This document shows, piece by piece, positions 37,260 through 42,801 of a stretch of 43,681 bases of DNA. Under the pieces are notes generated by a model. It was not told the DNA's origin and did no database searches. It worked only from the letters and a program-made list of their open reading frames with translations. The position numbers were made by a program, and so were the translations under genes. This DNA is from Candidatus Methylomirabilis sp. (lineage in GTDB: Bacteria > Methylomirabilota > Methylomirabilia > Methylomirabilales > Methylomirabilaceae): the NCBI RefSeq assembly GCF_028716865.1, contig NZ_JAQUOY010000023.1:1-43681 (forward strand). The letters are read 5' to 3'. Numbering within the stretch: position 1 is the first letter of the stretch; each line of letters opens with the position of its first letter.

Positions 37260-38141
37260 TTACTCGACGTTCTGGACCTGCTCCCGGAGCTGTTCCAGGA
37301 TACTTTTTAATGTTATCACATCGTGCGAGGTCTTGGCATCGTTCGCCTTGGCGCCGATAGTGTTGACCTCGCGTTGCATCTCCTGCAACAGGAACTCCAT
37401 CCGTCGGCCGTGCGGACCCTGTTGTTGGATGAGATCCCGGAACTGTCGGAGATGGCTTGTGACTCGCGTGGTCTCTTCCGCGATATCCGAACGCTCAGCC
37501 AGGATGGCGACTTCCTGTTCAAGTCGGCCGGGATCGACCGATTTCCCCTCCAGCAGGCGCTGGAGCCGAAGCTCCAGACGATTCTTGTAGCTTTGCACGA
37601 CTTCCGGCGCGCGGGCGACGATCGTCGCCAAGGTGGCCTCGACCAGATCCAGGTGACCGAGCAGGTCGGCCTCGAGCGCCTTTCCCTCCTCCCGTCGCAT
37701 CTCGACGACGGCATTCATCGCTCCTTCAAGGGCAGTCCTGACCGCCACCCAATCAGCATCCCCCGCCCCCGATTCCTCGCCTTCCAGGTCAAAAAGGTCT
37801 GATCGGGAAAGTAGCAGTTCCAATGTTACCTCTCCTGTGAGACCGAGTTCCGACTGAAGCGTCTTGGCGGCATCAAGATACGCATGGGCCAGCGGCCGAT
37901 TGAGACGCAGCGTGCAGGACTGCTCACCCGTCAACTCCTCAAGCACCGTCACGTCAAACCGCCCTCGCGCGAAGCGTCCTTGCAGGGTCTTCAGGATCTG
38001 CAACTCCAGGGCGCTCAGCCGCTTTGGGAGCCGGGCACGAACATCGAGATAACGATGGTTGACCGACTGCAGTTCGCAGACGTATCGTTTTGAGGAGGTA
38101 GCGCACTCCCCTTGCCCGAACCCAGTCATACTGCTTAACAT
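37260..38141 (-). CDS. yicC: YicC-family endoribonuclease
   Basis: 293-residue protein of the YicC family, members of which cleave RNA. SSMTGFGQGECATSSKRYVC and ELQSVNHRYLDVRARLPKRL lead; RGRFDVTVLEEL follows and RDLIQQQGPHGRRMEFLLQE and REVNTIGAKANDAKTSHDVI end it, as in the family. The start at ATG 38141 is preferred over 38186, which adds 15 non-conserved residues; an ATG four codons later is possible. A sigma-70-like promoter lies about 100 bases upstream, so yicC is the first gene of the long operon. Confidence 0.92.
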   Translation of the reverse strand: MLSSMTGFGQGECATSSKRYVCELQSVNHRYLDVRARLPKRLSALELQILKTLQGRFARGRFDVTVLEELTGEQSCTLRLNRPLAHAYLDAAKTLQSELGLTGEVTLELLLSRSDLFDLEGEESGAGDADWVAVRTALEGAMNAVVEMRREEGKALEADLLGHLDLVEATLATIVARAPEVVQSYKNRLELRLQRLLEGKSVDPGRLEQEVAILAERSDIAEETTRVTSHLRQFRDLIQQQGPHGRRMEFLLQEMQREVNTIGAKANDAKTSHDVITLKSILEQLREQVQNVE

Positions 38142-38235
38142 CTCGTCACGGCCTCGGTAACGTTGGCATGAGGGTTGCCACAACACTGGATGGGTGAGCG
38201 CGAAGGGGTGCCGCGCGGGGATTTTTTATTATATT

Positions 38236-38294: not shown

Positions 38295-39935
38295 TCATGT
38301 CTGACCCTTGGCGTCCTCTTCGGACGAGGTCTCGCCTTCACCTCCATAGCCTCGCTCAACCAGGTGCCTTTCGATATCCTCTTTCGCAAAACCGATTCGT
38401 CGGGCCACTTTATCGGCATGGCTCACCCGTGAGATTCCCTCGATCAATCGATAAGTTGGGGAGCTATGGACAAATTCCGCCTGGCGATACAATCCAACGT
38501 CTCTTTTTTGAAACTGCTCCGCCAGCTCGTGATTGTGGGTGACCAGAATCGTATTGTTGCCGACTTGGTGAAATCCCCCGAGGATGGTGCGGGAGATTTC
38601 CAGTTTCTCTTGATAGGTGGTTCCCTCCGCCAGCTCATCCAGAATGACCAGGCTTTTGGGAGACGATGCGAAAAAGATGGCCTTCGTGCGCTGTAACTCC
38701 GTTCCGAATCTCCCCTCCCGGTCAGCCAGCGAGTTGCTTTCCGGAGCCTGATAGAAAATCCGATCAGCCACCGAGAGCTGCGCCGCCTCAGCGGGCACAT
38801 AGCAACCGATCTGCGCCAGCAGTTGCACCTGGGCAATGGTTTTGCAGAAGGCGGTTTTCCCGCCTCCATTTGGGCCGGTAATAAACGCCAATCGAGCCCC
38901 GTTCAGGTTGAGATCGTTGGGCACGTAGTCGGTATTCCCTTTCCCCAGGATAGGGTTTCTGACCGTTTTTAAGATCATCGCGTGCTGATCTGCATCAATG
39001 AGCGTCGGTAAAACGGTCGAACTTCCGAACGCTTTAGCATAACGATAAAAAGACAGCAGTTCATCGATCTGCCCTAACGCCTCTAGTGCCTGCTGAACAT
39101 CGCGGGAGTTTCGATAACCATCCCGCAAGGGATAGATGATACTGTCCCTGTCAAAACCCCCAACGATAGGTCCATACAACATAAATGAGGGAAGTAAAAA
39201 AACCAACACGACGGGCATTGCATGTTGGGAGATCCCGAAAGCGGGGGCGTAATGCAGCAGAAGACCCAGCGCAATCAAGAGCGTGACGATCAATCTTGGC
39301 TTGAAGAGGGTTGGTCTGAATTTGATAGCAGGGGTCAGGAGCCACTTTTCAGCCTTCGTCTTGATGGCCCTCTCCGTCAGGTAGGCAGGACCTTCCATCA
39401 AGGCATGCGATCGTGTGGAGCCAAACGCCTTGAGCGCGTCGAGACGCGCTCGAAGATAGGGGCTTTCAGGTGCGGGCAGAGCATGAGCACCCTTGGCGAG
39501 ATCGAGCATGAGCTTCGTCCCTTGCCGGTAGGTTTTATGCCCATACCCCCCTGTTTCCATTTTGTCCCGGGGATCCCCCAAGGTGCCGAGGAAGGTCCCA
39601 AACAGCAGACGGTAAAATTCCTCCTCCTGTTTCGCGGCATCCTGCACCAGTGCTTCGATCCGCGCTCGCAGATCAGCCTTCGAGCCCAGCTCCCGGAGCG
39701 CGTCCTGCTTGGCCGTGATGGCCTCGATCGAACTTAACGGGTGGGCCAAGGAGCGGTACAGCGTGGCTTGCCCGACGATGGTGCCGGCGCAATTGACGGC
39801 GTCAAAGAGTCGATCGACTTCGATCGTGTTGAACGTGCTCTCATCGAGCACGCCTTCACCAGTTTTCGCCGCCCTGGCCGAGCGAACGGACAGCTCCTTG
39901 CCGATGGCTGTCAGAAGAGGTTCATGCATTCGCAT
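38295..39935 (-). CDS. Membrane-embedded MutS-like ATPase
   Basis: 546-residue MutS-family protein without the mismatch-recognition domain. Residues 35-200 resemble the MutS core helices (FNTIEVDRLFDAVNCAGTIV and on). Two hydrophobic segments at about 215-232 and 240-258 look like a membrane hairpin inserted within the core. The ATPase follows: Walker A FITGPNGGGKTAFCKTIAQV at about 351, an MutS signature-like DREGRFGTELQRTKAIFFAS at about 405, Walker B SLVILDELAEGTTYQE at about 428, and the switch His in ILVTHNHELAEQF. It is not MutS1 or MutS2 (no Smr domain). Function unknown; no operon partner. Confidence 0.82.
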   Translation of the reverse strand: MRMHEPLLTAIGKELSVRSARAAKTGEGVLDESTFNTIEVDRLFDAVNCAGTIVGQATLYRSLAHPLSSIEAITAKQDALRELGSKADLRARIEALVQDAAKQEEEFYRLLFGTFLGTLGDPRDKMETGGYGHKTYRQGTKLMLDLAKGAHALPAPESPYLRARLDALKAFGSTRSHALMEGPAYLTERAIKTKAEKWLLTPAIKFRPTLFKPRLIVTLLIALGLLLHYAPAFGISQHAMPVVLVFLLPSFMLYGPIVGGFDRDSIIYPLRDGYRNSRDVQQALEALGQIDELLSFYRYAKAFGSSTVLPTLIDADQHAMILKTVRNPILGKGNTDYVPNDLNLNGARLAFITGPNGGGKTAFCKTIAQVQLLAQIGCYVPAEAAQLSVADRIFYQAPESNSLADREGRFGTELQRTKAIFFASSPKSLVILDELAEGTTYQEKLEISRTILGGFHQVGNNTILVTHNHELAEQFQKRDVGLYRQAEFVHSSPTYRLIEGISRVSHADKVARRIGFAKEDIERHLVERGYGGEGETSSEEDAKGQT

Positions 39936-40248: not shown

Positions 40249-40968
40249 ATGACAGCGAAACTGTACGACCTTTCCGCGGAGGAAACCCAGTCCCTGCCGG
40301 TCGATCGACTCGCGATGCTGGTACTTGCTCATCTCGTGGAAACAAGGGAGTGGAATGAATACAACTTCCTGAACAGTGGCGTCAACCGGCGAGTACCAGA
40401 TCAAAGCCTGCGTTGCTGGGCTGAGGCGCTCAATTGGCTGATTTCTCAGAATGCGGTCGCTCGCAATACCCCCCGTCAGTCCAACCCCCAAGCGATTTTT
40501 GTCACGCGGCTCGGCCACCGAGTTCTTAGGGAAGGTAGCGAAACGCTTCGGGCAACAGCGCGGCTCGATGTCGACTTGCACAGCCGACTTACTAAGGTGC
40601 GCTCTCAATTTCTGATGGGTGAGTACGAACTCGCAGCTTTTGCGGCGATGAGAGAAGTAGAAATCCGAGTTCGTGAGCTTGCAAGAGCAGAATCGTCCCT
40701 TCTTGGCGTCAAATTGATGCGAAAGGTGTTCGGAGATGGAGGCGCGTTGGCCAATTCGGGTCTCGATGCTGGAGAACGGGTGGGAATAATGGAGTTGTTC
40801 GCCGGGGCGATCGGCACGTTCAAGAATCCACCGAGCCACAGGCAAGTGGACTACAGCAATCCAACGGAAGCATCAGAAGTTGTGCTGTTGGCCGACCTGC
40901 TAATGAGGCTGCTGGATCGATACTCCACAAGTGCGGACAGCACTGGTCCTGGTCAACACGGAGCCTAA
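40249..40968 (+). CDS. TIGR02391 (Ymh-like) family protein
   Basis: 239-residue protein. The C-terminal half, LDVDLHSRLTKVRSQFLMGE then YELAAFAAMREVEIRVRELA, followed by GIMELFAGAIGTFKNPPSHR, is the Hypoth_Ymh/TIGR02391 pattern, which is common in accessory and phage-defence contexts. The N-terminal 100 residues contain a winged-helix-like stretch (SLRCWAEALNWLISQNAVAR). The HR of PPSHR is a conserved family point, and the helical C-terminus resembles HEPN folds. Biochemical activity is unknown. It begins the island; about 105 bases separate it from the MntA gene. Confidence 0.78.
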   Translation: MTAKLYDLSAEETQSLPVDRLAMLVLAHLVETREWNEYNFLNSGVNRRVPDQSLRCWAEALNWLISQNAVARNTPRQSNPQAIFVTRLGHRVLREGSETLRATARLDVDLHSRLTKVRSQFLMGEYELAAFAAMREVEIRVRELARAESSLLGVKLMRKVFGDGGALANSGLDAGERVGIMELFAGAIGTFKNPPSHRQVDYSNPTEASEVVLLADLLMRLLDRYSTSADSTGPGQHGA

Positions 40969-41074
40969 CATGGCTTGCAACCGATAGCGGCTGGTGGGAT
41001 CCTGGATCGCCGCGCTGAAGCCTAACGTTGGCGGCTCGCAAGTAGCGAGGTATCATAGTCGAAAGAGGTGCGGC

Positions 41075-41383
41075 ATGGTTCGTGTGCTTGAGGACAAGCG
41101 TGAGGCAATCGCGGAGGCGTGCGCTCGTTTTGGCGTGGCGCGCCTCGATGCCTTCGGTTCCGCGCTGCGGGACGACTTCCGTTTAGGCGAGAGCGACGTG
41201 GACCTCCTGGTCGAATTTCGCCCTATGGATCCGTTTGCGCTCGTAGATGCGTACTTCGGGCTCCTTGATGAACTCCGAGAAATCCTTACCACCGATGTCG
41301 ATCTCGTCATGAGCGATGCGATCAAAAACCGCTACATCGCGGCGAACGTCGAACGCACCAAACAGGCTTTGTATGCAGCGTGA
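41075..41383 (+). CDS. mntA: MntA-like antitoxin nucleotidyltransferase
   Basis: 102-residue minimal nucleotidyltransferase. The signature FGSALRDDFRLGESDVDLLV gives the GS...DxD motif, with 11 residues between GS and the first Asp rather than the usual ten, and the third Asp is in TTDVDLVM. MntA antitoxins add AMP units to the partner HepT toxin to silence it. GAAAGAGG precedes the ATG at 41075. The end overlaps the partner gene by 11 bases. Confidence 0.87.
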   Translation: MVRVLEDKREAIAEACARFGVARLDAFGSALRDDFRLGESDVDLLVEFRPMDPFALVDAYFGLLDELREILTTDVDLVMSDAIKNRYIAANVERTKQALYAA

Positions 41384-41732
41384 GATCCGCGCCTACCTAC
41401 TCGATATCATTGAGGCCTGCGATGCAATCGTCTCTGCCACGCACGACCTGGACTTAGACGCATACCGCGGGAATCGCCTCATTCGCTCGTCGGTAGAGCG
41501 CGAGTTCATCACCATCGGCGAGGCTATCGGCGCCATGTCACGCCTCCACCCGGAGTTGTTCGATCAGATATCTCAAGCGCGGCGAATCGTCGACTTTCGC
41601 AATCAGCTAACGCACGGGTACGCGACGGTCAACGACACCATCGTGTGGGGAATCGCGATCCGTGACGTTCCGGCGCTTCGGCATGAGTGCGAAAGACTCA
41701 TGGCCGAGATGGGAAATCAGGAGGCGAAGTAG
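41373..41732 (+). CDS. hepT: HepT-like HEPN ribonuclease toxin
   Basis: 119-residue HEPN (DUF86) protein, a type VII toxin expected to cleave RNA as a dimer. The four-helix layout ends in VDFRNQLTHGYATVNDTIVW, which includes RX4HXY (RNQLTHGY): the Arg and His are the RNase site, and the Tyr is the residue AMPylated by MntA in characterised pairs. The start MQREIRAYLLDIIEACDAIV overlaps the mntA end, so the pair is translationally coupled. An upstream start at 41316 lies inside mntA and is rejected. Confidence 0.9.
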   Translation: MQREIRAYLLDIIEACDAIVSATHDLDLDAYRGNRLIRSSVEREFITIGEAIGAMSRLHPELFDQISQARRIVDFRNQLTHGYATVNDTIVWGIAIRDVPALRHECERLMAEMGNQEAK

Positions 41733-42138: not shown

Positions 42139-42176
42139 AATTGACAACACGGCTCAGCGTTGGTATTCTCTCCAAC

Positions 42177-42473
42177 ATGAAGGCTATGCCCTTGCTCCTT
42201 CGGCGAGTGATCGTTGCTGCAGACGCATTCGTTGAGGTCGTAGTGTGGGAGGTTCCAGAGCCGATATCTCCATCAACTCATGAATTCAAGTACCGGCTTG
42301 CGTATGTCGTTCGTGGCCAATGCGTGCTGCGATATGACAATGAGCAGGGAAAGGGTGATCACCGGCATACCGAAACAACCAAAGAGCCTTATAACTTTTC
42401 TACGCCTGATCAACTGATGGCCGACTTTGCAGCCGACGTAGCGAGGTGGAATCATGAACACGGTCGTGCTTGA
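42177..42473 (+). CDS. TumE-like (DUF6516) toxin
   Basis: 98-residue protein of the TumE/DUF6516 family. The core [20 protein letters not shown] then [20 protein letters not shown] has the GDHRH stretch conserved in the family. It is paired with an HTH protein of the TumA type, as in characterised TumE-TumA modules. ATG 42177 chosen over 42141 because the sequence starts to fit the family there; an ATG three codons later is also possible. No ribosome site is strong. The two genes overlap by 20 bases. Confidence 0.75.
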
Positions 42474-42801
42474 AGTTCGTTCTCTCAAGGAAACCCTGAT
42501 CGATGCCTCACGGGCAATGAAGACGGGTCGCGCGAAGCCCGAGGCGCGTATTAGCTTTGCTACGCCGGAACTCCTTTGGCAAGTCCTGACGGCGAAGCGC
42601 TGGGAGCTTCTTAAGGCGCTTTGCGGGGCTGGCCGCGTATCTATCCGCGAGGCTGCGCGTCGGGTTGAACGCGACGTGAAAGCTGTCCATGGTGACGTAA
42701 GGGCGCTTCTGGAAGCTGGGATACTGAACCGCACACCCAATGGGCGCATTGAGTTTCCGTTCGACGCCGTGAGGGTAGAGTTCCTACTGAGAGCAGCATA
42801 G
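42454..42801 (+). CDS. TumA-like HTH antitoxin
   Basis: 115-residue protein with a winged-HTH domain: LLWQVLTAKRWELLKALCGA, then GRVSIREAARRVERDVKAVH and ALLEAGILNRTPNGRIEFPF, matching the HVO_A0114/TumA DNA-binding group. It is expected to bind the TumE toxin and repress the operon. The start lies inside the end of the toxin gene, so the two are translationally coupled. Confidence 0.78.
   Translation: MNTVVLEVRSLKETLIDASRAMKTGRAKPEARISFATPELLWQVLTAKRWELLKALCGAGRVSIREAARRVERDVKAVHGDVRALLEAGILNRTPNGRIEFPFDAVRVEFLLRAA

Follow-up and report, generated by a model that had tools for sequence, protein, structure and literature searches.

A MutS-like ATPase with a probable membrane hairpin, found in Methylomirabilis and in distant methane- and ammonia-oxidising lineages

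A gene in a 43,681-nucleotide stretch of Candidatus Methylomirabilis DNA (hereafter the window) encodes a MutS-core ATPase that is in all probability tethered to the membrane and works outside ordinary mismatch repair. What the protein does there is more tentative. Our best explanation, that it is fixed to the inner membrane and remodels a client there, perhaps the copper membrane monooxygenase (CuMMO) of methane and ammonia oxidisers, is offered as a possibility that we would put clearly below even chances. The gene and the parts of its product are as follows.

38295..39935, minus strand: MutS-like ATPase gene, an open reading frame of 546 amino acids, with the probable start, Met3, at 39929
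39321..39857, minus strand: core/lever-like helical region (MutS domain III), residues 27-205, placed by a sub-threshold Pfam MutS_III match at 42-295 and by the best model alignment (MSH3), which starts at residue 27
39237..39293, minus strand: first hydrophobic helix (probable transmembrane), residues 215-233, from hydrophobicity and the model
39162..39218, minus strand: second hydrophobic helix (probable transmembrane), residues 240-258, from hydrophobicity and the model
38853..38876, minus strand: Walker A, GPNGGGKT, residues 354-361, from motif and alignment
38634..38651, minus strand: Walker B, LVILDE, residues 429-434, from motif and alignment
38535..38537, minus strand: switch histidine, H467, from motif and alignment

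Translation probably starts at Met3, leaving the first two residues untranslated, because the open frames of four of the eight other genus copies in alignment A1 (L004, L007, L009 and L010) begin at that residue. Pfam recognises MutS_V (PF00488) at 101 bits against a cut-off of 30.2. MutS_III stays below threshold in the window protein (29.1 against 34.1) and in L082, and exceeds it in L068 and L020; in the predicted structure, this core/lever domain III precedes domain V. The complete Walker A, Walker B and switch histidine claimed in a sequence-only reading of the window are present and aligned with those of MutS1 and MutS2. Across 31 aligned rows that include ATPase domains of MutS1 and MutS2, the key ATPase columns are invariant or nearly so, the window protein keeping TGPN..GK, the Walker B DE, the GT that follows it and the switch TH. 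The gene is under purifying selection in the genus, with a whole-gene dN/dS of 0.11-0.19 across eight genus pairs that include the window copy. The window protein stays below the cut-off of every NCBIfam model, as do its relatives L068 and L020 and also L015 and L016, two proteins with a hairpin in the core that are discussed below.

The same reading held that the protein lacks mismatch-recognition and Smr domains, and the Pfam scan of the window protein agrees, returning no match to MutS_I (PF01624), MutS_II (PF05188), MutS_IV (the clamp) or Smr (PF01713). In the window genome, rated 99.98% complete, the only MutS_V matches are the gene itself and an 806-residue MutS2; the search found no canonical MutS1 in it. 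With the mismatch domains absent and MutS2 as the only other MutS_V match, known mismatch repair gives no explanation of the protein, as had been suggested, and a role in ordinary mismatch repair is unlikely.

Two hydrophobic segments had been noticed at about residues 215-258, and they hold up well: the windows 215-233 and 240-258 have KD values of 2.15 and 2.03. When the residues were shuffled, 10 of 20,000 shuffles yielded two windows of at least 2.0 with starts 19-45 apart. Such a pair at 1.8 or above occurs in none of 84 soluble MutS1/MutS2 open reading frames, one single window of which reaches 2.06; these frames are not independent, many being near-copies, and of 81 MutS stretches only 10 are left at 80% identity. 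Alignment A3 comprises 17 rows from three lineages, the other rows being 43-85% identical to the window protein, and all 17 keep both segments (KD at least 1.77). Ahead of the hairpin, 48 of 256 A3 residues are lysine or arginine, compared with 9 of 206 in its loop and 53 of 289 beyond it, and this K/R-poor loop between K/R-richer flanks is the pattern expected if both ends of the hairpin are cytoplasmic. Within the hairpin alone dN/dS is 0.04-0.39 (the eight pairs with the window copy), suggesting that it is often freer to change while remaining hydrophobic. Charged residues do occur: eight of the 17 rows have one or two of them in the first-segment columns, or a single one in the second segment.

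A first AlphaFold2 model built on 20 close sequences had a mean pLDDT of only 47.2 and was set aside. The second reached a mean pLDDT of 78.0 and a pTM of 0.76; its alignment extended the first 20 rows by one further relative and ten stretches of MutS1/MutS2 ATPase domain, an addition that biases the ATPase part of the model towards MutS and not the core, where the alignment holds family members only. Residues 27-527 of this model match MSH3 (8rz8_B: Z 34.8, rmsd 5.5, 456 residues) and residues 31-525 match the MutS2 core (7vuk_B: Z 30.3, rmsd 6.8, 425 residues); MutS and MutS2 chains make up the fold matches listed. The hydrophobic segments lie in two helices, 213-233 and 240-254. An hhalign comparison with a three-row MutS/MutS2 profile sets most of the first helix opposite a gap near residue 490 of a Geosporobacter MutS and, with low local confidence, the second against about 501-520, within the Pfam clamp domain of that protein (437-527). 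The DNA clamp of MutS thus seems, on the alignment, to be replaced by a predicted membrane anchor, because hhalign places the hairpin in the clamp region and not in the conserved core.

The model does not suggest that the segments are buried in a soluble fold, a concern raised along with the original observation: it gives two helices, which hhalign places at the clamp and outside the core, but ten-residue pLDDT means over 211-260 are only 43-74. That low confidence, together with the charged residues in eight A3 rows, would fit a soluble MutS-like protein whose hairpin is a buried or dimerising element. We think this improbable, given that hydrophobicity is kept in every A3 row, that the loop is poor in lysine and arginine, and that none of the 84 soluble frames looks alike. 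The fold matches bear on another reading as well, in which a MutS2-type DNA or ribosome factor is held at the membrane and acts, for example, on the translation or replication of membrane-protein genes. MutS and MutS2 chains are what the model resembles, and ribosome rescue is a reported function of MutS2 (PMC12292046); the window protein, however, has no Smr domain and its hairpin falls within the clamp region, and such a factor seems unlikely to us.

Our surveys of the family covered two phyla, that of Methylomirabilis (NC10) and Pseudomonadota. Another Candidatus Methylomirabilis genome carries a relative 91% identical to the window protein (L017). In a 95-genome set of the phylum, the gene is present in 12 of the 15 genomes of the genus Methylomirabilis, three of these matches being partial and at contig ends, versus none of the 80 others. 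PF02461 (pmoA/amoA), scanned in 33 of the 95 phylum genomes and in the pseudomonadotal genome G451, was found in 10 of the 15 genus genomes, all of which have the MutS-like gene, and in none of the 18 other phylum genomes tested. Two further genus genomes have the gene with no PF02461 match, and PF02461 is likewise absent from the three genomes without the gene, of which one is 94% complete. The pmoA of the window genome lies on contig C9, a different contig from that of the MutS-like gene. A scan of GTDB contigs with two short peptide patterns, a design that cannot show absence in other groups, returned 19 loci: three from Methylomirabilis/Methylomirabilota and 16 from Methylobacter/Methylococcales, the latter at 51-54% identity to the window protein.

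In Pseudomonadota we used an even draw of 398 genomes, centred on a Methylobacter genome chosen for having the gene, with a family cut-off of E <= 1e-60. The gene occurs in two of the 398 (the centre and G451), and PF02461 exceeds its cut-off in three (the centre, G451 and G536), a fourth match falling below it. Two of three CuMMO genomes and none of the 395 without therefore have the gene (Fisher p 3.8e-5 with the centre counted, a value that, like all our Fisher p-values, ignores shared ancestry); with the chosen centre removed the figures are one of two against 0 of 395. Across 251 genomes of Methylobacter's order the gene is found in 210 and PF02461 in 207, with 178 having both, 32 the gene only, 29 PF02461 only and 12 neither (Fisher p 0.042, a weak association). 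Of the PF02461-only genomes, 23 are no larger than 2.8 Mb, and these may be incomplete or reduced.

G451 has three amoA copies, one of them between genes that read as amoC and amoB, and an AmoA that presumably resembles the Nitrosomonas enzyme; judged by this AmoA, its family reads as ammonia-oxidising. Its copy of the ATPase has the hairpin. Among 110 genomes of that family, 90 have the gene, 63 PF02461 and 58 both, leaving 32 with the gene only, five with PF02461 only (1.0-2.2 Mb in size) and 15 with neither (Fisher p 0.002). G536 has two pmoA copies, and its PmoA looks like that of alphaproteobacterial methanotrophs, as we take it to be. At E <= 1e-30 the gene was found in none of 239 genomes of the G536 family, a search made with profile A3, which had no known-positive run of its own (the related A2 found G451), in a family whose CuMMO status is known only for G536 and the members of the 398-genome draw.

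The protein was initially treated as a lone oddity. It is indeed a MutS-core ATPase with a probable hairpin, but its family is common to gammaproteobacterial methanotrophs and to a Nitrosomonas-like family. Co-occurrence with CuMMO is strict in one direction of the even draw, with the gene in none of the 395 Pseudomonadota without PF02461, but not in the three groups, which contain 32 + 32 + 2 gene-only genomes whose missing PF02461 could reflect assembly gaps. Nor is the gene present in all CuMMO bacteria: the alphaproteobacterial gap (0/239 in the family of G536) and the 29 + 5 other CuMMO genomes without the gene argue that the ATPase is not a general CuMMO requirement.

A tree of 32 proteins places Methylomirabilis, Methylococcales and the G451 family each in one group and joins Methylomirabilis to the Methylococcales side, where it may branch beside or within that order, since bootstrap support for Methylococcales as a single group is 60% (200 trees). 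Lateral transfer of the gene between phyla appears likely, because identity of the window protein to the Methylococcales proteins, which belong to another phylum, is 48-58%, and to the G451 protein 43%. CuMMO operons are themselves thought to have moved laterally, and enzymes of NC10 and proteobacterial methanotrophs are described as sharing a group in some of the published trees but not in the rest (PMC6215863).

The surroundings of the gene in the window are as follows.

37260..38186, minus strand: yicC, the downstream neighbour, named by Pfam for the window copy (other copies were recognised by reading the starts of open reading frames)
40249-40968, divergent from the MutS-like gene: gene for a TIGR02391/Ymh protein (Pfam/NCBIfam)
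40994-41732: probable toxin-antitoxin module, a pair formed by a nucleotidyltransferase (PADLOC PDC-S09, 106 bits) and a HepT-like ribonuclease
42141-42801: probable second toxin-antitoxin pair, made up of a TumE toxin-family gene and, after it, an HVO_A0114 gene

With yicC on one side and the Ymh gene and the two pairs on the other, it is fair to describe the locus as isolated and bordering an accessory island. yicC adjoins the gene in 7 of the 10 genus loci in which the downstream side is present (the window included), and it is not thought to be part of the function of the ATPase. The genes of the window island give no sign of partnership with it, and the island looks incidental. In another member of the genus (L096, 9993-16185), the gene is followed by a restriction-modification or defence-like island with a nucleotidyltransferase-HEPN-like pair, names given by reading. 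A defence-like island beside the gene was noticed only in the window and in L096, among loci that were not all annotated for such islands. The best PADLOC match of the protein is a partial one to mad8 at 31.8 bits. A defence gene was rejected as the main reading because the compared loci of Methylococcales and the G451 family keep the gene in different surroundings, though its window neighbours are toxin-antitoxin-like.

A plasmid or phage gene was likewise rejected, no plasmid or phage record covering 80% of the query. The only viral match is to an IMG/VR contig (L109) that looks like DNA of a Methylococcales host, where an integrase gene adjoins dusA (names by reading); it is probably a prophage at a dusA site. 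Scans of viral contigs with the L015 and L016 proteins returned no relatives. As a separate observation, five plasmids (H57-H61) carry CuMMO subunit A genes, in Methylomagnum, Mycobacterium, Mycolicibacterium and two Rhodococcus strains.

Outside the genus the neighbours change. Methylococcales loci have dusA- and folE-like genes just upstream in 12 of 15 cases, hemH in 7 of 15 and purT directly after the gene in 6 of 15 (folE, hemH and purT are named by family match for L020, dusA by reading); purT reappears in the G451 family three genes downstream, in 1 of 16 loci. In 12 of those 16 the gene and a periplasmic adaptor gene are divergently oriented, the adaptor usually having ABC ATPase and permease genes after it (MacAB-like); in the other four (L241, L242, L243 and L247) the gene lies between a TolC-family gene and the hopanoid-associated hpnA; names in this family rest on matches for L237 and L241 and otherwise on sequence clusters. 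No partner gene conserved across the three lineages was seen in the compared loci, most of whose neighbours are unannotated.

The MacAB-like, TolC-family and hpnA neighbours favour a tethered ATPase that serves export through the envelope or the handling of lipids, its link to CuMMO being indirect, through lineages with much inner membrane. Such neighbours were not seen in the examined loci of Methylococcales (dusA, folE, hemH and purT) or Methylomirabilis (yicC), however, and synteny within one family is not independent evidence, so that we regard an export or lipid role as unlikely. Methane and ammonia oxidisers meet hydroxylamine or NO, and the three lineages all carry CuMMO and hence meet copper; the protein could then serve against reactive nitrogen or copper stress and not CuMMO itself. 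Against this, no shared stress-gene neighbour was noticed in the compared loci, again mostly unannotated, and we give the stress role little chance.

Our preferred reading of a membrane-fixed remodelling ATPase would work as follows. The MutS-core ATPase, probably a homodimer, would be fixed to the inner membrane by a two-helix hairpin at the tips of its levers, the site of the DNA clamp in MutS, with both ends of the hairpin in the cytoplasm. ATP-driven opening and closing of the dimer would act at the membrane and not around DNA, the capacity to bind DNA having presumably been lost. Most likely it would use ATP to assemble, remodel or reactivate a client in the inner membrane, a role for which KamC offers a comparison, and the best present candidate for that client may be pMMO/AMO, the copper membrane monooxygenase, or the part of the membrane in which this enzyme sits. 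CuMMO or its surrounding membrane leads the candidates because of the distribution of the gene and because of precedents for MutS-like proteins as reactivases and in metalloprotein assembly, such proteins having been proposed to assemble metalloprotein complexes (PMC9164220). Any link to CuMMO is nonetheless tentative, with the odds against it. A machine dedicated to CuMMO (its assembly, copper loading or reactivation) in NC10, gammaproteobacterial methanotrophs and betaproteobacterial-type ammonia oxidisers, with the clamp turned anchor, is more doubtful still. The most cautious statement is that the protein is a lineage-associated accessory factor.

The question matters for methane oxidation. 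Isolated pMMO is reported to be less active than whole cells, with missing components suspected, and copper-dependent growth on methane requires PmoD, a protein described as exclusive to CuMMO-bearing genomes (PMC6189053). An ATPase that is probably membrane-bound, is conserved in methane and ammonia oxidisers only distantly related to one another and is rare elsewhere in our sample is a concrete knock-out candidate for such a missing component; if our reading is true, a DNA clamp of MutS has been turned into a membrane anchor. Among the literature matches listed we found no description of this protein, Krishnan et al. 2020 (ABC ATPases) lying outside that scope. A 2004 phylogenetic profile is reported to group Methylococcus MCA0346 and MCA2963 with pmoC3 and a Nitrosomonas gene (PMC517821); MCA2963 could conceivably correspond to the MutS-like gene.

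Compared with known systems, the window protein shares with MutS1 the domain V ATPase and its motifs and the core/lever fold, but has no domains I and II and carries a hairpin in the clamp region; the MutS1 models score 145.9 bits (NF003810, cut-off 480) and 119.5 bits (TIGR01070, cut-off 641.7). Like MutS2 (TIGR01069), it begins at the core, without domains I and II, and matches the fold of 7vuk, whereas it has no Smr domain and reaches 125.9 bits against a cut-off of 400. KamC (NF052383), the lysine 5,6-aminomutase reactivase ATPase, is by its NCBIfam name a MutS-like ATPase with a non-DNA role; the window protein scores 105.8 bits against a cut-off of 300, over the ATPase region only, and no aminomutase gene was found among the window neighbours scanned. 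Similar in design are "MutS family" proteins of Bacteroidota and Bacillota, L015 (WP_022275341.1) and L016 (WP_013483470.1), which have MutS_V preceded by a hydrophobic hairpin, lying in L015 inside the MutS_III match (L015 alone of the comparison proteins has MutS_III limits available). They differ in having one or more extra N-terminal hydrophobic segments, a longer stretch from hairpin to P-loop and a different P-loop. The window protein, too, has its hydrophobic hairpin within the domain III region, before MutS_V; hhalign of the window family against the two-row core-hairpin profile aligns residues 278-521 only. Because core-hairpin MutS-like proteins exist in these phyla, in Bacteroides and Ruminococcus, the architecture, as read from sequence, is not unique to methane and ammonia oxidisers. 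What is new is this MutS-like family, its probable clamp-site anchor and its distribution; the core-hairpin design itself is wider.
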